Shown in pieces: positions 12,933 to 32,060 of a stretch of DNA of 32,711 nt. Every line of letters starts with the position of its first letter. Within the stretch, counting starts at the first letter, position 1. A program made the position numbers and the translations under genes. The notes beneath the pieces are model-generated. The model made no database searches and was not told the origin of the DNA. It saw only the letters and a list, made by a program, of their open reading frames with translations. Where the stretch lies: contig JAYELL010000079.1 of the NCBI GenBank assembly GCA_034717495.1, positions 1 through 32,711 on the forward strand, in the 5' to 3' direction. This DNA comes from Chloroflexota bacterium (lineage in GTDB: Bacteria; Chloroflexota; Anaerolineae; JAAEKA01).

Positions 12933-13604
12933 CTAGAGTTCCTCCGTTAATAATCCCCGGCGTGCAGCCACAGCGATGGCCGCGGCGCGCGAATCTACTC
13001 CCAGCCGGTTGAAGATACTGGTGACATGGGCCTTCACGGTGCGCTCGGTGATTCCCAGACTCCGTGCGATTTCCTTGTTGCGTTCTCCCCTGGCGATCTC
13101 CTGGAGCACCTGCAATTCGCGGTCAGTGAGGGTTGTCGCGCCGCGCGTCGTTGAGACAGGTGCAGCCACCGGCTGGGTGTGGGTCAGCAATCTTTCGACG
13201 ATATCCTGTGTGAGCAGCGTTTCGCCGCGGGAGGCGGCCCGGATGGCACCGATCAGGGTTTCACGGGTGGTGTCCTTGAGCAGATAACCTCGTGCGCCTG
13301 CCCTCAACCCGCTCAGGATCAGATCATCCTCGTCGAAAGTTGTCAAGATGAGCACCGCGATGTGGGGATGTTCAGCCTGAAGTTGCTCGATGGCTGTCAG
13401 TCCATCCATGCCGGGCATTCTCAAATCCATCAGAATCACGTCAGGGCTTTTGGCGGCAGCCAGGCGAAGGGCTTCGGAGCCATCGCTGGCTTCGCCAACA
13501 ATTTCGATGCCCTCTGCCGTCTCCAGAATGAGACGTAACCCCTCCCTCACTATCAGGTGGTCGTCGGTAATCAGAACGTTGATGTTTTGGCCGGTTTCCG
13601 CCAT
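12933..13604 (-). CDS. NarL/LuxR-family response regulator
   Basis: A 223-residue DNA-binding response regulator. The receiver domain (about 8-125) has the acidic pair in ITDDH, phospho-acceptor D60 (VILMDLRMPGMDG), the Thr of LILTTF, and K110 in GYLLKD. A short Pro/Thr-rich linker leads to a LuxR-type HTH (about 155-215): LTDRELQVLQEIARGERNKE then ITERTVKAHVTSIFNRLGVD. It lies 24 bases downstream of the cognate-looking kinase gene in the same direction and is surely co-transcribed. Divergent ABC exporter genes next to the pair are the likely targets. Confidence 0.95.
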   Translation of the reverse strand: MAETGQNINVLITDDHLIVREGLRLILETAEGIEIVGEASDGSEALRLAAAKSPDVILMDLRMPGMDGLTAIEQLQAEHPHIAVLILTTFDEDDLILSGLRAGARGYLLKDTTRETLIGAIRAASRGETLLTQDIVERLLTHTQPVAAPVSTTRGATTLTDRELQVLQEIARGERNKEIARSLGITERTVKAHVTSIFNRLGVDSRAAAIAVAARRGLLTEEL

Positions 13605-13628
13605 GGCTACTCTTTCGAAAGTCGACTT

Positions 13629-14876
13629 TCAGGTTGCCAGAGGCACTTGCAGGCGCAGGGTCGTTCCTTCACCCGGTTGACTTTCCACCTGCAGCGTGCC
13701 GGCCGCCAGGCGAGCGCGCTCCCGTGCCCCGATCAGGCCGTAGTGCCCGGCGCGCCCGGCCGATGGGTCGGTATCAAAGCCGATTCCATCGTCCCGAACC
13801 ACTATCTGCAAATTGCCGTCATCATCGGTGGCCGTCAGCCAGACCTCGTTGGCCTGAGCGTGCTGGGCCACATTGGCCAACGCCTCACCGACAATCCTGC
13901 ACGCGTGTTCGCAGCTTTCCTCTGATATCTGGCCAGCCAGCCTGATGTCTAAGTGGCAGGGGATGCCAGTTGCCTGGCTGAAACGAATTGCTTCCTGTTC
14001 GATGGCTTCGGCCAGATCCTCGGAGGTAGCCGATTCTTCGCGTAGATCGGAAATCACCCGTCGAGCGTCCGCCAGTGTGCTGCGCGCCCGCCCCATGGCC
14101 TGGTCCAGGATTTCCTCCGCTCGTTGATTCCCGCCACTGGCCAGGTGTGACTTTGCAGCTTCCAGCTGAAGGATTACGCCGGCCAGGCCCTGGGCCAGGG
14201 TGTCGTGCAATTCCCGGGCCATGCGCTGCCGCTCAGCAGTCAGGGTAAGGTTCTCCACCTCAACCGCGTACCGCGCAAGTTGTGCGTAAGCGAGTTCCAA
14301 TTCCTTCAGAAGCGCCTGAGCTTCGGCGCGGGCTTCCGCCTGACGGGTATACAACTCGACATAAACAATGACAAACAAAGTCATGGGTGCAGCGAAGAGT
14401 GCCCACGATGGCAGTGAGTCCAGCCCCCTGATCAGCCAGGTCGAGTAGGAAGCAACGGCCAGGATGATCACGATCGTGACCGCTGCCAGCCGTTTATCCG
14501 TCAGCAGGCCGAGGGTTACGCCGACCAGAGCCAGGAAGAGGCCCATGGGCATGGCAGGATTTTGCGAAACGAGCACGATGCTGAAAGCCAGAGCGCCCTG
14601 AACCACCAGGTAGAGCAGTGCCCAGGGATTGTCTTCAGGCACCAGGGGAAGAAGCCAGTAGAGAGCACCGTGAACCAGCATCAGGATAAACAGAAGGAGG
14701 AGTCGCCACGGGGACCAGTCGGCGGGACGTGTCATCACGGTGAAAAGAAAAAGGCCGAGTATTACCAGGGAAACAATGATCAGGAAAGGCCGTGCTTCGA
14801 CGGCCTCCTGCTGCCGTCGTCTGGAAAGGGCTTTCAGGCCTAACCAACGGGATTGGCTATCTGAGTACTCGGTCAT
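13629..14876 (-). CDS. Membrane sensor histidine kinase (HisKA_3, NarL/DesK type)
   Basis: A 415-residue kinase. About six hydrophobic helices occupy residues 30-175 with very short loops, so the signal is probably sensed in or at the membrane. A coiled linker (about 176-212) leads to HisKA_3 with H224 in ERQRMARELHDTLAQGL. The HATPase_c domain follows: N-box ACRIVGEALANVAQHAQA, G1 VRDDGIGFD, and G2 GHYGLIGARERA with GEGTTLRL near the end. The layout matches DesK/LiaS/YvfT-like kinases that control ABC exporters. It heads a two-gene unit with the regulator at 12933. Confidence 0.94.
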   Translation of the reverse strand: MTEYSDSQSRWLGLKALSRRRQQEAVEARPFLIIVSLVILGLFLFTVMTRPADWSPWRLLLLFILMLVHGALYWLLPLVPEDNPWALLYLVVQGALAFSIVLVSQNPAMPMGLFLALVGVTLGLLTDKRLAAVTIVIILAVASYSTWLIRGLDSLPSWALFAAPMTLFVIVYVELYTRQAEARAEAQALLKELELAYAQLARYAVEVENLTLTAERQRMARELHDTLAQGLAGVILQLEAAKSHLASGGNQRAEEILDQAMGRARSTLADARRVISDLREESATSEDLAEAIEQEAIRFSQATGIPCHLDIRLAGQISEESCEHACRIVGEALANVAQHAQANEVWLTATDDDGNLQIVVRDDGIGFDTDPSAGRAGHYGLIGARERARLAAGTLQVESQPGEGTTLRLQVPLAT

Positions 14877-19157: not shown

Positions 19158-22100
19158 ATGGCATCGATGGCAGCTCCCTCTCCCGGCGCTTTGATGCGCC
19201 GATTCTTGGCGGTGCTGCTCTTGATTCTCCTGGGGCAGGCACTGCTGGGCACGCGCCCGGTTTCTGCTTCACCACAACCCCCGCAGGCATCAGGCACCAA
19301 TGACCCTATTTCTATTCCCAACCAACCGGTAGAATTCGAGCATATCTCGTTGGACGAGGGGCTAAGCAGCAGCACCGTGACGGCGGTGCTGGAAGATAGC
19401 CGGGGTTTCATGTGGTTCGGAACTGCCAGGGGCCTGAATCAGTATGATGGCTACCAGTTCAAGACCTTTGTGCATGATCCTGACGACCCGGGCAGCATCG
19501 GTGCAGACGACGTATTGTCGATTGTTGAAGATCTGGAGGGGGTTCTGTGGATCGGTACCTCCGCCGGCCTTGATCGATTCGATCGTGACGAAGGGCGGTT
19601 CACACGCTTCACACTGCCCGACGACGATGGTGATCAAGTGCCGACTCCTGTCAATGCCCTGTTCGAGGATCGGGCCGGGTTCCTGTGGGTTGGTGCGGGA
19701 AATGGTCTCTTTCACTTCGATCGCGAGACGGGCAATTTTCACTCTCATCAGCGCAGCCCGAATAACCCAGGGGGATTGGGGGACTCGCCCGTCTATGCCA
19801 TTTTCGAAGACAATTCCGGGGTCCTCTGGATCGGCGCACGGCGAGGCCTTTATGCCTGGCCACCGGAAGCTGAGCGCTTCAAATATCACCGGCCAAACCT
19901 GGAAGCGCCGCGTTGGGAACACAATGTTGTTCAATCCATCGCCGAAGACCAGGAAGGCATGCTCTGGATCGGCACCGGCGGCGGCGGCTTTTTCCGCTTT
20001 GACCCAACCACCTATCAATTTTCCCAGCACCTGCTCAATCCTCGGGATGTGGAAGGTTTAACCTACAATAACGTTGCAGAAACCTATGTGGACAGCCAGG
20101 GTGTCCTGTGGATTGGCTCTGTGGGGGGTGGTCTCTACCAACTGGACCCGCATTCGGGCGAACTCATCGCTCATCGGTCAGATCCGGGCACGGAAGAAAG
20201 CCTGAGCTCCAACTACATTCTGAGTCTCGCCGAGAGCCAACCGGGCGTGCTCTGGGTAGGTACCTGGGGCGGGGGCGTGAACAAATATGATCGCCTCAAA
20301 CGGAAGTTTTTGCACATACGCCACGATCCTGCCGTCGCTGACGGTCTCAGTCCGAATCCGGTTATTGCCCTGCTGGAGGACAGCCGGGGCTTGTTGTGGA
20401 TTGGCACCGAGGGGGGAGGGATGAGTGTTCACGACCTGGAGACGGGGATGTGGCGCACCTACCGGCACGATCGCGATGATCCAACCAGCCTCAATAGCGA
20501 CTACGTCACCTCTTTTCTGGAGGATCGCGCCGGCAATATCTGGGTGGGCACCTGGGAGGGAGGGCTTTGCCGCTTCGATGTCGAGACTGAACAATGTACC
20601 ACCTTCCGGCCCGATCCTCTTGATCCCACGAGCCTGGGCAGCGACATCACCAGGCTGCTGTTCCAGGATGAAAACGGAACGCTTTGGATTGCCGCTTTTG
20701 GCGCTGGGCTTGATCGCCTGGAGCAACCGGAAATGGCATCGCCCGACGCCGAGTTCTTTCACTATTGGACCGTTCCCAATGTGCCCAACCGGCTGAGTGG
20801 CAATCGGATCATTCAGTTGACAGAGGATGCTGGCGGGATATTCTGGCTTGCTACCATGGATGGTGGGCTCAACCGTTTCGATCGCGGGACGGGAGAGTTC
20901 ACAAACTACCGGGAGGATCCCGGTCAACCGGGCAGTCTGAGCAGCGATGCCACGCTGGCGGTGACCATCGATTCAAGCGGTGATACGTGGGTAGGTACTG
21001 ACGCCGGATTAAACCGTTTTGATCCCGACACCGGCACGTTTGAGGTCTTCACTCAGAAGGATGGTCTGCCCGATGATTCCATCATGGGAATCCTGGAGGA
21101 TGACGCTGGCTATCTCTGGTTGAGCACCCAGAGAGGATTGGCCAGGTTCAATCCCCGTACCGGCGCTTCGAGAAACTTCACGCAGAACGACGGGTTGCAG
21201 GGCTACGAGTTCAACCTTGGGTACGCCAAGAGTGAGAGCGGTCCACTCTATTTTGGCGGGATCGACGGTCTGAATGTTGTATATCCCGGGCATATTCCGG
21301 CCAATCCCTACGTGCCGCCGGTCGTTTTGACTTCACTGAAGCAGAATGGCAGCGATATATCGGAAGGCAAGGCTTCGGACGGTCTGGAGAAAATCACGTT
21401 ACGCTGGCCCAGCAATGATCTGGAGTTTGAGTATGCGGCATTGAATTTCAGCCAACCGGAGCGCAACCAGTATGCCTACTTCCTGGATGGTTTCGATTCC
21501 GATTGGAACTACGTCGGCGACCGGCGCTTTGGCCGCTACACGAATCTGCCGGGCGGCGACTACCTGTTGCGGGTGAAGGCCAGCAACAGCGATGGCGTTT
21601 GGAACGATGAGGGAGCTTCATTGGCTATTAGCGTTGTGCCACCCTTCTGGCAGACGCGCTGGTTCCAGGGATTGGCACTTGGATTGCTGGTCGCATCAGC
21701 GTTCCTGGCATACCGGTTGCGGGTTCGCAGCATCGAAGACCGCAGCCATGAATTGGAATCGGAGGTCGCCTTCCGCACCTACGAAATTCAGGAACGAAAT
21801 CAGGAGCTGGACGCTCTCTACCGGGCTGACGAGGAACTGTACAGCCATCTGCAACTGGACGACGTTCTCCAGTCATTGGTCAATATTGCGGTAGACTCCC
21901 TCCAGGCCGATAAGAGCGTCGTGCTTGGTTGGGGTGAGAGCAGAGAAAAACTGGTGGCGCGTGTCGAGCGGGGTTTCTCCCCAGAAGTTGTCGGACAACT
22001 GGTCTTTGAGCCGGGCAAGGGGGTCGCCGGTCACGTGGCGAGGACAGGGGAGGCTGTCGCAGTTCGCGATGCAACCAACAATGAGTGGCTGGCAGGGGAA

Positions 22101-23552
22101 AGCCCTGAAACGGTTGCAATCGTCCTGGCGGAAGGTATCCGCTCCTTCATGCATCTGCCGATCACTGTGAACAACGAGGTCTTTGGCGTATTCAACGTCA
22201 GCTATACTAAGCTGCACGCCTTCGGCGAAAACGAAAAGCGTACCTTTTCGGCCCTTGCCCAACGGGCTGCCCAGGCGATCGAGAACGCCAGGATGTTCGA
22301 CGCGGAGCAGCGCCGGGCTGAGCAGTTCCAGGTCATCAGCGAAGTTGGCAGCCAGATCACCGCCATAATGTCGGTCGAGGAAATCCTGCAACGAACCGCT
22401 CGTTTGATCGAGGATACCTTCGGGTATTATCATGTGGGCATCGGGCTGGTCGAGGGAGACCAGGTCATCTATCGCTACGGCGCCGGCGATCTCTGGGACG
22501 ACGCCGGGTTTGACTTTGAACCAGCTCAATTGAAGGTGGGCAGTGAGGGGGTAACCGGCTGGGTCGCGGCAACAGGCAAGCCGCTCTCTGTGCCTGATGT
22601 GCGAGAGGAACCGCGCTATGTGTTGATGCAGGGCAGCGAAACCCGCTCGGAACTGACCGTACCGATGATCGTCAAAGGAAAGGTGATCGGTGTGCTCGAC
22701 GTGCAGAGTCGCTGCTTGAATGCCTTTGATGATATAGATCTGACGGTGCTTCAGGCATTGGCCCATCAGGCGGGCGCCGCGATTGAGAATACCCAGCTCT
22801 ACGAGCAGGCGCAGAAGGCGGCTGTGGTTGAAGAGAGGAGCCGCCTGGCTCGCGACCTGCACGATGCAGTGACGCAGTCTCTCTTCTCTGCAACCTTGCT
22901 TTCTGAGGTGCTGCCGACTACCTGGGAGAGTGACCGGCAGGAAGGGGAAACCTTGCTTCGGGAACTGAGCCAGCTCAACCGGGGCGCGCTGGCAGAGATG
23001 CGAACACTGCTGCTTGAGCTTCGCCCAGCGGTTCTGGCCGATGCCGATCTGGCCGACCTCATGAACCAACTTGCCGACGCCGTCACGGGGCGAACCGGGA
23101 TGCCAGTCGATGTTCAGGCTGACAAGGACTGCAGGCTGGAGCATGATGTGCATATAGCGCTCTACCGAATCGCTCAGGAGGCACTCAACAATGTGGTCAA
23201 ACACTCCAGAGCAGGTCATGTCACGGTTCAACTGAAATGCATGACCGGATCGGGCAACGGCCAGGGCGATGAACAATTTTGCCGGATCAAGTTGCAGATT
23301 AGCGACGATGGGATTGGCTTCGATCCGGAGGCGATCCCGCAGGGCCGGCTGGGCCTGGGTATCATTCAGGAACGGGCTGAGGCGATCGGTGCGGACCTGA
23401 GCATCGAAACTGCGCCCGGGGAGGGGTCCCGTGTCACCGTGACATGGCGAGGGTCACCCACTGAGGGGGATTCTGGTTCTTCGCCCGATGGTGCGCTGGC
23501 AGGCACAACAGTCCCGGAAGATTACGGAGATGTCAACAATGGACAAGGCTGA
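19158..23552 (+). CDS. Two-component sensor kinase with 14 propeller blades, Y_Y_Y, two GAF domains and HisKA_3
   Basis: A 1464-residue kinase. A signal/anchor (FLAVLLLILLGQALLG) leads to about 14 Reg_prop blades, each ending in a (L/I/F/M/T)W(I/V/F/L)(G/A/S) motif from MWFGT to LYFGG; 14 fits two seven-bladed beta-propellers outside the cell. A Y_Y_Y domain (about 748-830, LEFEYAALNFSQPERNQYAY, then GGDYLLRVKASN) precedes one membrane helix (about 835-855). A coiled segment, GAF1 (about 898-1045) and GAF2 (about 1058-1215) follow, then HisKA_3 with H1235 in RLARDLHDAVTQSLF, and HATPase_c with ALYRIAQEALNNVVKHS, DDGIGFD and GLGIIQERA. Unlike classical hybrid two-component systems of this propeller class, it has no fused receiver or AraC domain; the regulator is the overlapping next gene. 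The start may instead be the ATG at 19194. Confidence 0.93.
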   Translation: MASMAAPSPGALMRRFLAVLLLILLGQALLGTRPVSASPQPPQASGTNDPISIPNQPVEFEHISLDEGLSSSTVTAVLEDSRGFMWFGTARGLNQYDGYQFKTFVHDPDDPGSIGADDVLSIVEDLEGVLWIGTSAGLDRFDRDEGRFTRFTLPDDDGDQVPTPVNALFEDRAGFLWVGAGNGLFHFDRETGNFHSHQRSPNNPGGLGDSPVYAIFEDNSGVLWIGARRGLYAWPPEAERFKYHRPNLEAPRWEHNVVQSIAEDQEGMLWIGTGGGGFFRFDPTTYQFSQHLLNPRDVEGLTYNNVAETYVDSQGVLWIGSVGGGLYQLDPHSGELIAHRSDPGTEESLSSNYILSLAESQPGVLWVGTWGGGVNKYDRLKRKFLHIRHDPAVADGLSPNPVIALLEDSRGLLWIGTEGGGMSVHDLETGMWRTYRHDRDDPTSLNSDYVTSFLEDRAGNIWVGTWEGGLCRFDVETEQCTTFRPDPLDPTSLGSDITRLLFQDENGTLWIAAFGAGLDRLEQPEMASPDAEFFHYWTVPNVPNRLSGNRIIQLTEDAGGIFWLATMDGGLNRFDRGTGEFTNYREDPGQPGSLSSDATLAVTIDSSGDTWVGTDAGLNRFDPDTGTFEVFTQKDGLPDDSIMGILEDDAGYLWLSTQRGLARFNPRTGASRNFTQNDGLQGYEFNLGYAKSESGPLYFGGIDGLNVVYPGHIPANPYVPPVVLTSLKQNGSDISEGKASDGLEKITLRWPSNDLEFEYAALNFSQPERNQYAYFLDGFDSDWNYVGDRRFGRYTNLPGGDYLLRVKASNSDGVWNDEGASLAISVVPPFWQTRWFQGLALGLLVASAFLAYRLRVRSIEDRSHELESEVAFRTYEIQERNQELDALYRADEELYSHLQLDDVLQSLVNIAVDSLQADKSVVLGWGESREKLVARVERGFSPEVVGQLVFEPGKGVAGHVARTGEAVAVRDATNNEWLAGESPETVAIVLAEGIRSFMHLPITVNNEVFGVFNVSYTKLHAFGENEKRTFSALAQRAAQAIENARMFDAEQRRAEQFQVISEVGSQITAIMSVEEILQRTARLIEDTFGYYHVGIGLVEGDQVIYRYGAGDLWDDAGFDFEPAQLKVGSEGVTGWVAATGKPLSVPDVREEPRYVLMQGSETRSELTVPMIVKGKVIGVLDVQSRCLNAFDDIDLTVLQALAHQAGAAIENTQLYEQAQKAAVVEERSRLARDLHDAVTQSLFSATLLSEVLPTTWESDRQEGETLLRELSQLNRGALAEMRTLLLELRPAVLADADLADLMNQLADAVTGRTGMPVDVQADKDCRLEHDVHIALYRIAQEALNNVVKHSRAGHVTVQLKCMTGSGNGQGDEQFCRIKLQISDDGIGFDPEAIPQGRLGLGIIQERAEAIGADLSIETAPGEGSRVTVTWRGSPTEGDSGSSPDGALAGTTVPEDYGDVNNGQG

Positions 23553-24177
23553 AACGATTAAAGTGATGCTGGTCGACGATCATGATATGGTGCGCCGTGG
23601 GCTGGCAGCCTTTTTGCGGGCCAAGCCTGACCTGGAATTGGTTGGTGAAGCCCGAAATGGCGAGGAGGCATTGCTTGTTTGCCAGCGGTCCAGGCCGGAT
23701 GTGATCCTGATGGATCTGGTCATGCCTCGCATGACCGGCGCCGAGGCGACACGACTGATCCGTGACGACTGCCCCGAGGTGCAAGTGATCGCGCTGACCA
23801 GTTTCGAGGACAAGGATCTGGTGCGGGATGCCCTTCAGGCTGGAGCAATCGGTTATCTGCTGAAAAACGTCTCGGTGGACGATCTGGCGGCAGCCATTCG
23901 CAGTGCCCATGCCGGGCGTTCAACCCTGGCACCGGAAGCCATTCAGGCGCTGGTGCTGGTCCAGGATGAACTCCAGATTGGCCAGGATCTGACCGGGAGG
24001 GAACGAGAGGTGCTGGCTCTTCTGGTGACGGGCAAGAGCAACCCCGAGATCGCAGAATGTCTGGTAATCAGCCGAGCCACCGCCAAGGCCCACGTAAGCA
24101 ATATTCTCTCCAAGCTGGAGGTGTCGAACCGGGCGGAAGCGGTGGCGGTTGCCATGGAGCACAAACTGGTCCGTTGA
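23539..24177 (+). CDS. NarL/LuxR-family response regulator, partner of the propeller kinase
   Basis: A 212-residue regulator. The receiver domain has VDDHD at the start, D59 in VILMDLVMPRMTG, the Thr of IALTSFED, and the Lys of GYLLKNVS. The LuxR-type HTH (LTGREREVLALLVTGKSNPE, then ISRATAKAHVSNILSKLEVS) follows. The ATG at 23539 has GGAG at 23526-23529; an in-frame ATG at 23530 with GGAAG is almost as good. Either start lies inside the 3' end of the kinase gene (stop at 23552), so the two are translationally coupled and almost certainly a kinase-regulator pair. A terminator follows. Confidence 0.95.
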   Translation: MDKAETIKVMLVDDHDMVRRGLAAFLRAKPDLELVGEARNGEEALLVCQRSRPDVILMDLVMPRMTGAEATRLIRDDCPEVQVIALTSFEDKDLVRDALQAGAIGYLLKNVSVDDLAAAIRSAHAGRSTLAPEAIQALVLVQDELQIGQDLTGREREVLALLVTGKSNPEIAECLVISRATAKAHVSNILSKLEVSNRAEAVAVAMEHKLVR

Positions 24178-27914: not shown

Positions 27915-27932
27915 CAGCGAGGAAGAGAAATT

Positions 27933-30900
27933 ATGAAAAGGTTTTGGCCATTACTGCTGATTCTGCCCATGGTTGTGCTGGTCAGTTGTACCAGTCCGAT
28001 CATACTGACCGAAATGAAGCCTGAAGCGGAATCGACCCTTGAAACTGTTGCTTATGAGCCATTCTTCGAGCAGGCACCATGCCTCTTCTCCTTGCCTCCC
28101 GACGAGCTTGAAGGTGAGACGGTGATCTGCGGTTATGTGACGGTGCCGGAGCAGCGCAGTCGCCCGGAAGATTCCACCGTTCAACTGGCGGTCGCCATCT
28201 TCAAGAGCAGCAGCGACAATCCGGAGCCTGATCCCCTGGTGCTTCTGCACGGTGGTCCGGGCGAAAAGACCATACGCAGTGCGGCCAACGTCTTGATCCT
28301 CCTGGGCGAGTTCCGAGAGAACCGGGACGTCGTGGTCTTCGACCAACGCGGGGTGGGCGAATCCAGGCCCGCTCTGGAGTGTCCCGAGTTTATCGAAGGG
28401 CTCTACGACAACCTGGACGAATTGGATCCTGAGACCGGGCTGCGAACGATCTACGACTCCTTTTTGGCTTGCCGGGATCGGATGGTAGCCGAAGGAGTCA
28501 ACCTGGCTGCTTATAACACCACCGAGAATGCTGCCGACGTGGAGGATATCCGCAAGGCGTTGGGTTATGAAGAGATCAATCTCTACGGTGGATCGTACGG
28601 GTCCCTGCTGGCTCAGGCTGTGTTGCGGGATCACCCCGACCACATTCGCAGCGTCGTCATCGGTGCCGCACTGCCCACCGAAAGAAGCTTTTTTGTTCAT
28701 GTGCCCACGACAGCTGTCAACGCCACACTTCGCCTTCTGGAGCAGTGTGAGACCGACGATGCTTGTAATGCCGCCTATCCCGATCTGAAACAGGTTCTGT
28801 TCGACACTGTTGAGCAGCTTAACGCCGAACCGGTCAAGGTCGCCTTGACTGACCCCTCGGACGGTAGCGTGCATGATGCATGGCTGACCGGGGATGGCGT
28901 TTTTGGAAACCTGGTGACCTTCCTGTATGTGACGGACATCATTCCGGCGCTGCCTCAGGCTATCTACGATGTTGCCGGCGGCGACTATGAATTGATGAAC
29001 CGTCTCTCCAGTAAAAAGATGCTGCTCTTTGACATGCTCAGCCGCGGCGTCATGTTTTCGACTATGTGCGCCGAGGATCTGATTGGCGTCACGCCAGAGC
29101 AATATCTGGCGATCAGGGCGCAGATGCCCGGGCCGCTGGCAGGTATGGCTGATCCAGAGGATATCGTCGAGTATAGCTTTTTCGGGATATGCGAAGCGTG
29201 GCCGGTGCCGGAGGCTGATCCGAGCGTCAAGTTGCCGGTGGCCAGCCATGTTCCTGTACTGATCCTGGAAGGGGCGCTGGACCCGGTCACGCCCTTGGAA
29301 TACGCGCAGGAGGTGGCTGAACACCTGAAAAACAACTACGTCTACGAGTTTCCGGGAATCGGACACAATGTGATTGTTGCCAGCCGCTGCGCACGCCAGC
29401 TTTCTCTCGATTTTATGAACGATCCGTCGGCGGAGCCGGACGCGAGTTGTATCGACGAAATGCCGGGGGTTGTGTTTGACCTTCCGAGGGACGGGTCGGA
29501 GCCGCTGAACCTGACACCATTTAAGGAAGATGGCTTTCAGGGTGTCGCACCCGGTGATTGGGAAAAGGTGGGGCCTGGTGCTTATCTCCGGCGGGACTCA
29601 TCGTTGGATCCGACCGCACTTGTGTATGACCAGCTGGACATGACCCTGGTGGATTTCGAGCAGTTGATCCGCGCCCGACTTCAGCTGGATAGCCCGATCG
29701 AGCAGGTAGCCAAACTGGAAGCCAACGGCGTCAATTGGTCGCTCTACGTGGAAGAAGTGAGCGGCGTTGGGATCGACATTGCCGCCATGGAGAACGACGA
29801 CGGCAAAACCCGATTCGTGCTGTTGCAGTCTCGGCCGGAGGAGAGGGAAACCTTGTACGAGACCCTGTTCGTGCCAGCCATCGAAGCTTTCATGCCCCAG
29901 GCTTCAGTTCCTGAACAGAGCCTGCCATCTCCGGCTAAACCTGATTTGACTGTTGAGGAACAGAAGGGCACCACTTACGCGGATCCAAGTGGTCTGTTCA
30001 GTGTGCCCGTGCCGACCAACTGGACGATTGAGCAGAGGGAAACCCATACCGTTCTGGCAAGCCCCGATGGCGAGCTGGAGGTATATGTATTGAGCGTCCC
30101 TGCCCAGGACTTGGAGCAAGGCATTGCTGATGGCTGGGCCCTGATCGATCCTGGTTTTGACCTTGCTGTGGATGAGTTGATCGAGGAGCCTGTCGCCAAT
30201 GGCGCAGAACGAGCGATTACGTTGATTTACGATACAGAGGATGACGAGCTGATCGTAGCCGGCGGCGGCTGGCTGCATGAGGGTGTGGCCTATCTTGAGA
30301 TGTTCACTGCCAGCCTGGAGGGGTTACAGAAACGAGCCTCCCAGTTGGCGACCATCAGCACCGGGTACGACATAACTGCCCTGGAACCGACCGATCTGAG
30401 CGAAGTTGAGCTCCATGCCCTGGATGATAGCCTGATCGAGACGTTGGAAACCGACATTGAACGATACATGGAGCGACTGGATACACCCGGTGCTGCGGTC
30501 GCCATAGTCGAGAACGGCGAGGTGATTTACGCCAACGGCTTTGGCGTTCGCGATATGGTCACGGAAGAGCCCATGACGGCCGCGACGCAGATGATGATTG
30601 GGTCGACGACGAAATCGATGACGACGATGCTGATGGCCCAACTGGTGGATGAAGGTGTTTTCGATTGGGCCACACCTGTAACGGAGATTCTTCCGACTTT
30701 CCGTGTAGCCGATCCCGGGATCACTGATGAGATTACCATGCGCAACATGGTATGTGCCTGTTCAGGCGTGCCACGGCGTGATCTGGAGTGGATATTCAAC
30801 GCCGATCATCTCACAGCCGAAGATATTGTCGAATCGCTGGCAGACTTCGAGTTTTTCACCGAATTCGGCGAAGCATTTCAATACAGCAATCAGATGGTTG

Positions 30901-31847
30901 CCGCGGCCGGCTATCTGGCTGCACTGGCTTCGGGCACGCCGTATGGTGATCTTCAGGATGGTTACATCGAGCTGATGGAGGCACGCGTTTTCGATGCAAT
31001 CGATATGCCCGACACGACCTTTTCGTTTGACGAGGTGGCAGCAGGGAGGGATTACGCAACGCCTTACGGAAAAACTATCCTGGGAAAACTCATAGAATTG
31101 CCCCTGGATGCCGAGGAAATCCTGATACCAGTCGCCCCGGCCGGCGCAGCCTGGTCGAATGTCCTGGATATGGCACGTTACGCAGCCACCGAACTGAGCC
31201 AGGGGGTAACTCCCGATGGCAGCGCCGTGGTTTCGGCTGAAAACCTGGCGGTCACCTGGACGCCGCAAGTGGACATAACGTCCGATCTGAGCTACGGGCT
31301 GGGTTGGTTGATCGAGGACTGGAAGGGTATTCCGGTGATCAGCCATGCGGGCAACACCTTTGGCTACAGCTCGGAACTGGCCTTCCTTCCAGAGCATGGG
31401 ATAGGAATCAGCATTCTGACCAATGAGCAGAACTCGCTGTTGAATTCGGCGATCCGCTACCGCCTGTTGGAGCTCTTGTTCGGCCAGGAGGGCGACGACG
31501 AACATCTGGACTTCTACATCGATATGATCAACAAGGGGCGAAGCGATCTGATGCATAGCCTGTTACCTGAGATTGATACGGGCAGGATTGAACCTTACCT
31601 GGGTGTCTACTGGAACAACGAACTGGGCGAGGCTGAGTTGCGCTGGCAGGATGATGACCTGATTATGGATGTCGGCGAGGTTCAGATGACCGTGCGCGCT
31701 CGCCGGGATGAGGACGGAGAGGTGAGCTATCTGACAACAACTCCCCCGGCAGCAGGAATGCCACTGGAATTAAAGATGGATAACGACGGCAACCCTTTCC
31801 TTCAGTATGGTCTCGGCGTCGTCGAGTATATCTTCGAACGGCATTAG
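27933..31847 (+). CDS. Lipoprotein fusing an S33-type alpha/beta hydrolase to a class C beta-lactamase-type hydrolase
   Basis: A 1304-residue exported lipoprotein: lipobox LVSC with C19. Residues about 45-500 form an alpha/beta hydrolase of the S33/tripeptidyl-aminopeptidase type: oxyanion LLHGGPG, FDQRGVGESRP, nucleophile S221 in GGSYGS, D450 in EGALDPVTP, and H478 in GIGHNV. Residues about 515-670 and 685-815 are two linker-type domains; the second (YADPSGLFSVPVPTNWTIEQ) resembles PsbP/DcrB-like folds. Residues about 835-1304 form a class C beta-lactamase/D-aminopeptidase-like domain: S891-x-x-K894 (GSTTKS), Y984-S-N, and H1138-A-G. Both active sites look complete. It could process peptides, esters or peptidoglycan fragments outside the membrane; the substrate is unknown. 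SD AGGAAGAG is present. Confidence 0.9.
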   Translation: MKRFWPLLLILPMVVLVSCTSPIILTEMKPEAESTLETVAYEPFFEQAPCLFSLPPDELEGETVICGYVTVPEQRSRPEDSTVQLAVAIFKSSSDNPEPDPLVLLHGGPGEKTIRSAANVLILLGEFRENRDVVVFDQRGVGESRPALECPEFIEGLYDNLDELDPETGLRTIYDSFLACRDRMVAEGVNLAAYNTTENAADVEDIRKALGYEEINLYGGSYGSLLAQAVLRDHPDHIRSVVIGAALPTERSFFVHVPTTAVNATLRLLEQCETDDACNAAYPDLKQVLFDTVEQLNAEPVKVALTDPSDGSVHDAWLTGDGVFGNLVTFLYVTDIIPALPQAIYDVAGGDYELMNRLSSKKMLLFDMLSRGVMFSTMCAEDLIGVTPEQYLAIRAQMPGPLAGMADPEDIVEYSFFGICEAWPVPEADPSVKLPVASHVPVLILEGALDPVTPLEYAQEVAEHLKNNYVYEFPGIGHNVIVASRCARQLSLDFMNDPSAEPDASCIDEMPGVVFDLPRDGSEPLNLTPFKEDGFQGVAPGDWEKVGPGAYLRRDSSLDPTALVYDQLDMTLVDFEQLIRARLQLDSPIEQVAKLEANGVNWSLYVEEVSGVGIDIAAMENDDGKTRFVLLQSRPEERETLYETLFVPAIEAFMPQASVPEQSLPSPAKPDLTVEEQKGTTYADPSGLFSVPVPTNWTIEQRETHTVLASPDGELEVYVLSVPAQDLEQGIADGWALIDPGFDLAVDELIEEPVANGAERAITLIYDTEDDELIVAGGGWLHEGVAYLEMFTASLEGLQKRASQLATISTGYDITALEPTDLSEVELHALDDSLIETLETDIERYMERLDTPGAAVAIVENGEVIYANGFGVRDMVTEEPMTAATQMMIGSTTKSMTTMLMAQLVDEGVFDWATPVTEILPTFRVADPGITDEITMRNMVCACSGVPRRDLEWIFNADHLTAEDIVESLADFEFFTEFGEAFQYSNQMVAAAGYLAALASGTPYGDLQDGYIELMEARVFDAIDMPDTTFSFDEVAAGRDYATPYGKTILGKLIELPLDAEEILIPVAPAGAAWSNVLDMARYAATELSQGVTPDGSAVVSAENLAVTWTPQVDITSDLSYGLGWLIEDWKGIPVISHAGNTFGYSSELAFLPEHGIGISILTNEQNSLLNSAIRYRLLELLFGQEGDDEHLDFYIDMINKGRSDLMHSLLPEIDTGRIEPYLGVYWNNELGEAELRWQDDDLIMDVGEVQMTVRARRDEDGEVSYLTTTPPAAGMPLELKMDNDGNPFLQYGLGVVEYIFERH

Positions 31848-31889
31848 ATTCTTGCGCACTGGGCAAGACAATTAGCCATGAACCTGACA

Positions 31890-32060
31890 AGGATGTACCG
31901 CAGACCCGAATGAACCGCAGACCTGTGCTGAGCGTAGCCGAAGTATGACGCAGATGAATGCAGACGTATCTGAGCGAAGTCGAAGGGTGATCGCAGATCA
32001 ATCAAGAAAAGATCAGCGATGATCTGCGCCGGAGGTCTGCGTAAATCAGCGTTCCTCTGG
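31890..32060. repeat. Mosaic intergenic repeat with inverted ends
   Basis: CGCAGACCT (31916-31924) and its reverse complement AGGTCTGCG (32033-32041) bound a 126-bp block. Inside are two related words, GCTGAGCGTAGCCGAAG (about 31928) and TCTGAGCGAAGTCGAAG (about 31969), each adjoining a GCAGA-containing stretch. GATCGCAGATCA and GATGATCTGCG form a further inverted pair. Similar CGAAG/CTGAGCG words are familiar from spacers of many environmental bacterial genomes. No gene is seen between 31848 and 32084. Confidence 0.65.

Follow-up and report, generated by a model that had tools for sequence, protein, structure and literature searches.

The gene at positions 27933–31847 (plus strand) of the 32,711-nucleotide stretch of Chloroflexota DNA analyzed here, which is referred to as the window, raises the question of whether two serine hydrolases can truly be combined in one polypeptide and, if so, what such an enzyme would act on. 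The reading frame starts with ATG, is intact, and encodes 1304 amino acids; a ribosome-binding-like sequence, AGGAAGAG, precedes the start codon at about 27920–27927 on the same strand. The signal peptide (27933–27989, plus strand) contains a lipobox, LVS-C19, identified by eye, and its lipobox cysteine, in the sequence MKRFWPLLLILPMVVLVSC, is that of a bacterial lipoprotein. The initial annotation described a single lipoprotein chain carrying two complete active sites, S221/D450/H478 and S891xxK894, Y984-S-N, H1138-A-G, and this description is confirmed by the unbroken frame and by a check of the sequence, in which each residue is present at the position claimed. An extracellular location is supported by the lipobox, from which the 1304-residue chain is predicted to lie outside the membrane.

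The N-terminal half contains an S33 alpha/beta hydrolase domain of the TAP/Hip1-like type (residues about 45–515; 28065–29477, plus strand), which matches two Pfam families above their curated cut-offs, Abhydrolase_1 (PF00561, E 3.1e-22, residues 101–246) and TAP-like (PF08386, E 2.2e-13, residues 419–506). The codons of the triad are located at 28593–28595 (S221), 29280–29282 (D450), and 29364–29366 (H478) on the plus strand, and S221 is part of GGSYG, the sole GxSxG sequence of the chain. All three residues are identical in the 17 aligned S33 proteins, as are ten cysteines, whose invariance would be expected for a location outside the cell. Sequence and motifs therefore place this half among the predicted S33/TAP-like peptidases. 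In a search of PDB sequences, its nearest solved relatives are those of Hip1/CaeA (Rv2224c; E 1.6e-23), a mycobacterial cell-envelope protease that shares the S33 TAP-like fold and the extracellular location but for which no S12 half has been described, whereas the window protein has two additional domains, designated D1 and D2, and an S12 enzyme. Hip1 is a serine protease that acts on proteins and peptides (PMC4022732).

The S12 serine hydrolase domain of the C-terminal half (residues about 831–1185; 30423–31487, plus strand) has the Beta-lactamase (PF00144) fold, with a Pfam match of E 3.5e-54 over residues 841–1169 and a score of 184.6 bits against a cut-off of 27. Its first motif reads S891-TTK, and the codons of the motif residues are at 30603–30605 (S891), 30612–30614 (K894), 30882–30884 (Y984), and 31344–31346 (H1138) on the plus strand. 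The Ser, Lys, Tyr, and Asn of these motifs, together with the His and Gly of the H-x-G motif, are identical in 20 of 20 aligned proteins; as with the 17 S33 proteins, no catalytic residue is lost on alignment, and the proposal of two unrelated serine-hydrolase folds with intact active sites is supported by the Pfam assignments and by motif conservation in relatives. The AlphaFold2 model of D2 and the S12 half has a mean pLDDT of 92.1, and sequence, motifs, and fold agree on S12 membership. In fold, the S12 domain is closest to Pab87 (2qmi; Z 43.2, rmsd 2.2, 345 aligned), which is also matched by sequence (E 3e-23), and the modeled fold is accordingly predicted to be of the CubicO/Pab87 type. 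The next matches are IS11 esterase (Z 41.7) and, at Z 38.3, an FmtA-like protein and LACTB, with AmpC, ClbP, Lip3 DL-peptidase, and R61 near 37. The C-terminal domain that follows (residues about 1215–1304; 31575–31844, plus strand) is predicted by AlphaFold2 to have eight beta strands, gives a weak match to DUF3471, and occupies the position that the lipocalin domain has in Pab87. Pab87, a CubicO S12 peptidase of Pyrococcus abyssi, has its C-terminal beta domain at the same place as this predicted one; however, it is an octamer (PMC2651629), whereas the window protein carries accessory domains and a second enzyme ahead of its S12 domain. It acts on peptides containing D-amino acids, and its gene adjoins a dipeptide transporter, among peptide-transport genes (PMC2651629).

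In the initial annotation, this half was considered to be of the class C beta-lactamase type and a beta-lactam-like compound was listed as a possible substrate. The class C enzymes (AmpC) do share its fold (Z about 37) and the SxxK and YxN motifs, the latter present as YSN, and class C models are among its best NCBIfam matches, but the score of 65.2 bits falls far below the cut-off of 415 (bla_class_C) and the third motif is H1138-A-G in place of KTG, the His being invariant in the family. A class C beta-lactamase was therefore rejected on the score and the third motif, and, given also that Pab87 is the best fold match and that the half is fused to a peptidase-like enzyme, it is extremely improbable that it functions in inactivating beta-lactams. 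H-x-G is the third motif of R61-type S12 enzymes. Together with the similarity in fold to R61 DD-peptidase (Z 37) and to the FmtA-like protein (Z 38), this could indicate that the S12 half is a DD-carboxypeptidase or endopeptidase acting on peptidoglycan stem peptides, either the bacterium's own or those of other cells. We regard such a role as improbable because AmpC and LACTB match at least as closely, no cell-wall genes were found beside the fusion gene in the window, and the genomic linkage considered below is to peptide uptake.

The two regions between the enzymes had been termed linker domains; their number is correct, but neither is a linker, both being folded and having families of their own. 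D1 (residues about 523–656; 29499–29900, plus strand) was delineated from a profile, an AlphaFold2 model, and fold matches, and D2 (residues about 679–815; 29967–30377, plus strand) from a profile and an AlphaFold2 model; neither has a Pfam match in the window protein. The D1 profile matches 51 ORFs and the D2 profile 36, both counts including the ORF of the window itself as well as duplicate loci. D1 is the C-terminal partner of the S33 domain, and D2 is the N-terminal partner of the S12 domain. In a model of D1 and D2 (mean pLDDT 85.8), D2 is mostly above 90, but the pLDDT is under 50 at model residues 142–162, corresponding to the true linker, a segment of about residues 657–678 (29901–29966, plus strand) that is predicted to be disordered and is also defined by the ends of free-standing proteins. 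D1 matches PsbP (2xb3, Z 12.1) and Mog1 (1eq6, Z 11.4), and the top row in Foldseek is chain P of a PSII complex (E 1.2e-6), so that its model is predicted to have the PsbP/Mog1 fold; a Pfam PsbP sequence match is absent in the window protein and weak in 3 of 21 members (best E 0.024). The modeled strands and helices of D2 occur in the same order as those of D1, although the fold-match rows covered D1 only, and sequence homology between the two is not significant (hhalign probability 19.6). In this class, D1 seems to be a mobile accessory domain shared among secreted serine hydrolases, and the pair of accessory domains, of which D2 is putatively PsbP-like as well, travels with several such enzymes. 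D1 is also found N-terminal to a different secreted alpha/beta hydrolase at seven loci (L067, L069, L072, L073, L075, L086, and L088). At L070 and L080, an S12 enzyme has yet another N-terminal domain (AGRYTGSLSVAGLTLEI...) instead of D1, and at L108, D2 is duplicated, which suggests that the accessory part is freely exchanged.

The origin of the chain can be approached through its free-standing relatives. Secreted S33-D1 proteins match residues 27–659 with 52–54% identity, D1-D2-S12 proteins match residues 520–1303 with 44–48% identity, and D2-S12 proteins match residues 680–1301 with up to 53% identity; the first end, and the mature chains of the last start, at the linker. Every unit of the chain, and every pair of adjacent domains, is thus represented in natural proteins. 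These proteins (L038, L040, L041, L042, L091, and others, mostly from Chloroflexota; about 40–54% identity) resemble the window protein in domains, order, and motifs but, unlike it, come from separate genes that all encode a signal peptide of their own. A tree built from 42 D1 domains places the window D1 with the S33-attached D1s of G100 and G156 (95/89), and one built from 29 D2-S12 halves places the window sequence with L090 and L091 (99/97). Together these groupings place the join most likely at the D1/D2 boundary, within the disordered linker, where the natural C terminus of one family would be linked in frame to the other family just after its signal peptide. S33, S12, and two accessory domains in one chain were found here in one genome only: no second copy was detected in the other 395 of 396 genomes of the class, in the other five of the six genomes representing the order, in a phylum sample of 400 genomes, or among 80 named loci. 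An initial contig scan with the single protein as query gave no match, and literature searches did not reveal S33 + S12 fusions of this kind.

Presence in a single genome is one of several features that would fit an assembly artefact, in which separate S33-D1 and D2-S12 genes were misjoined near the end of a contig. The genome is a draft of 120 contigs, a distance of 2.8 kb separates the junction from the end of its contig, and the halves differ in codon usage, that of the D2-S12 half being the least typical of 18 segments (r 0.72 versus 0.76–0.94); the latter fits recent acquisition from elsewhere, but could also fit an assembly join. However, the reading frame is maintained across the join, which coincides with natural domain ends and falls in a disordered linker; the D2-S12 half of the window protein lacks a signal peptide; and GC content is even across the junction. 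Searches with the D1-D2 protein and with the junction DNA gave chance matches of 17–24 bp but no further copy in the genome. Directly behind the gene is an intergenic repeat (31848–32018, no strand assigned), partial matches to which occur at about 60 other places on many contigs of this genome; since this repeat family recurs in the genome, the second half of the gene lies in native DNA. Close relatives with two separate adjacent genes, which according to the initial annotation would point to an assembly join, did not materialize in that form: the sole adjacent pair found belongs to another organism and is in reverse order, and the junction contains no repeat. The fusion therefore looks real, and an assembly join is very unlikely.

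The reverse-order pair, the only side-by-side gene pair among 19 loci with an S12 half, bears on function. At this locus (L102, from an uncultured Chloroflexi genome), genes for an oligopeptide-type binding protein (SBP_bac_5) and two permeases (BPD_transp_1 and OppC-type) are followed on the same strand by a D2-S12 gene and, after 27 bp, an S33-D1 gene. The order being opposite to that in the window fusion, the same two enzymes have become associated independently here, in connection with peptide uptake, and the functional link between the halves proposed in the initial annotation is supported by their position behind an oligopeptide ABC transporter. The arrangement supports a role in peptide scavenging. 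An Opp transporter was not found beside any of the other S33-D1 or D2-S12 loci examined.

Whereas the architecture, the intactness of the catalytic residues, the modular origin, and a transporter-linked gene pair in another genome are seen directly, the surface location of the protein, its activity, its substrate, and any cooperation of the two sites are inferred. The fused protein probably helps to digest peptides outside the cell, and the reading that we favor, with confidence somewhat above even, is that this bifunctional lipoprotein is an in-frame, end-to-end fusion of an S33-D1 exopeptidase with a D2-S12 hydrolase of the CubicO/Pab87 type that digests extracellular peptides. The single lipobox would anchor the chain outside the membrane, where the S33 half could trim ordinary (L-) oligopeptides from the N terminus, while the S12 half might remove D-residues, C-terminal residues, or esters that are beyond the S33 enzyme, and peptide transporters would take up the resulting products. 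The two sites might also process a single substrate in sequence, as the initial annotation proposed. A peptide substrate is not certain because S12 enzymes include esterases and amidases, as exemplified by the match to IS11 esterase. It is conceivable that the fusion is real but that the partners are general esterases or amidases for xenobiotics or lipids; the S12 half is near the esterases IS11 and EH7 in fold, PDB entries related to the S33 half have been deposited also as Carboxylesterase A, and the same genome encodes a fusion of a PAF-AH/PETase-like enzyme with an S12 enzyme. This alternative is on balance unlikely in view of the oligopeptide transporter linkage at L102, the TAP-like domain, and the fact that Pab87 is the best S12 fold match. 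A more specific and rather speculative form of the preferred peptide-digesting role, which we consider unlikely, is that the two tethered sites would degrade peptides of mixed L/D composition, for example those in dead bacterial cell walls and lipopeptides, with the S33 site and a D-specific S12 site alternating on one substrate; if so, peptides that resist either enzyme alone could be fully degraded outside the cell.

The same genome and class contain other hydrolase fusions, a recurring theme of which the window fusion is a rare variant. Chains with at least two hydrolases combine alpha/beta-hydrolase and S12 domains (L055, L057, and L213) or S33 and M1 domains (L056 and L211); like the window protein, those that were read have a lipobox-like signal, but they contain other hydrolase families and accessory domains and are not orthologous to it. 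No new catalytic chemistry or system is revealed by the fusion; rather, it connects an S12 family with one that is S33 exopeptidase-like and thereby provides a testable guess for Chloroflexota "beta-lactamase family" proteins of this type, namely that their substrates are peptides, which may contain D-residues.

Among these chains, that at L056:3025-6246 (contig C63 of the same genome) is a lipoprotein-like protein of 1074 residues with an S33 TAP-like exopeptidase and an M1 aminopeptidase; another S33 gene precedes it closely (L056:260-2185, upstream), a relative is present at L211:452-3670, and the same architecture occurs in G276. The chain at L055:8079-11810 (contig C21 of the same genome) consists of SnoaL-like repeats, a PAF-AH/PETase-like domain, and a Beta-lactamase domain, and other alpha/beta-hydrolase + S12 fusions are encoded at L057:6693-10439 and L213:968-4087. 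G097 has a PETase-like + Beta-lactamase combination and G285 an Esterase + Abhydrolase_1 + Beta-lactamase combination. Elsewhere in the window, positions 19158–24177 contain a large sensor kinase gene (Reg_prop repeats, Y_Y_Y, two GAF, and HisKA_3), the end of which is overlapped by an ORF for a LuxR-type response regulator, and another kinase/regulator pair is located at 12933–14876.
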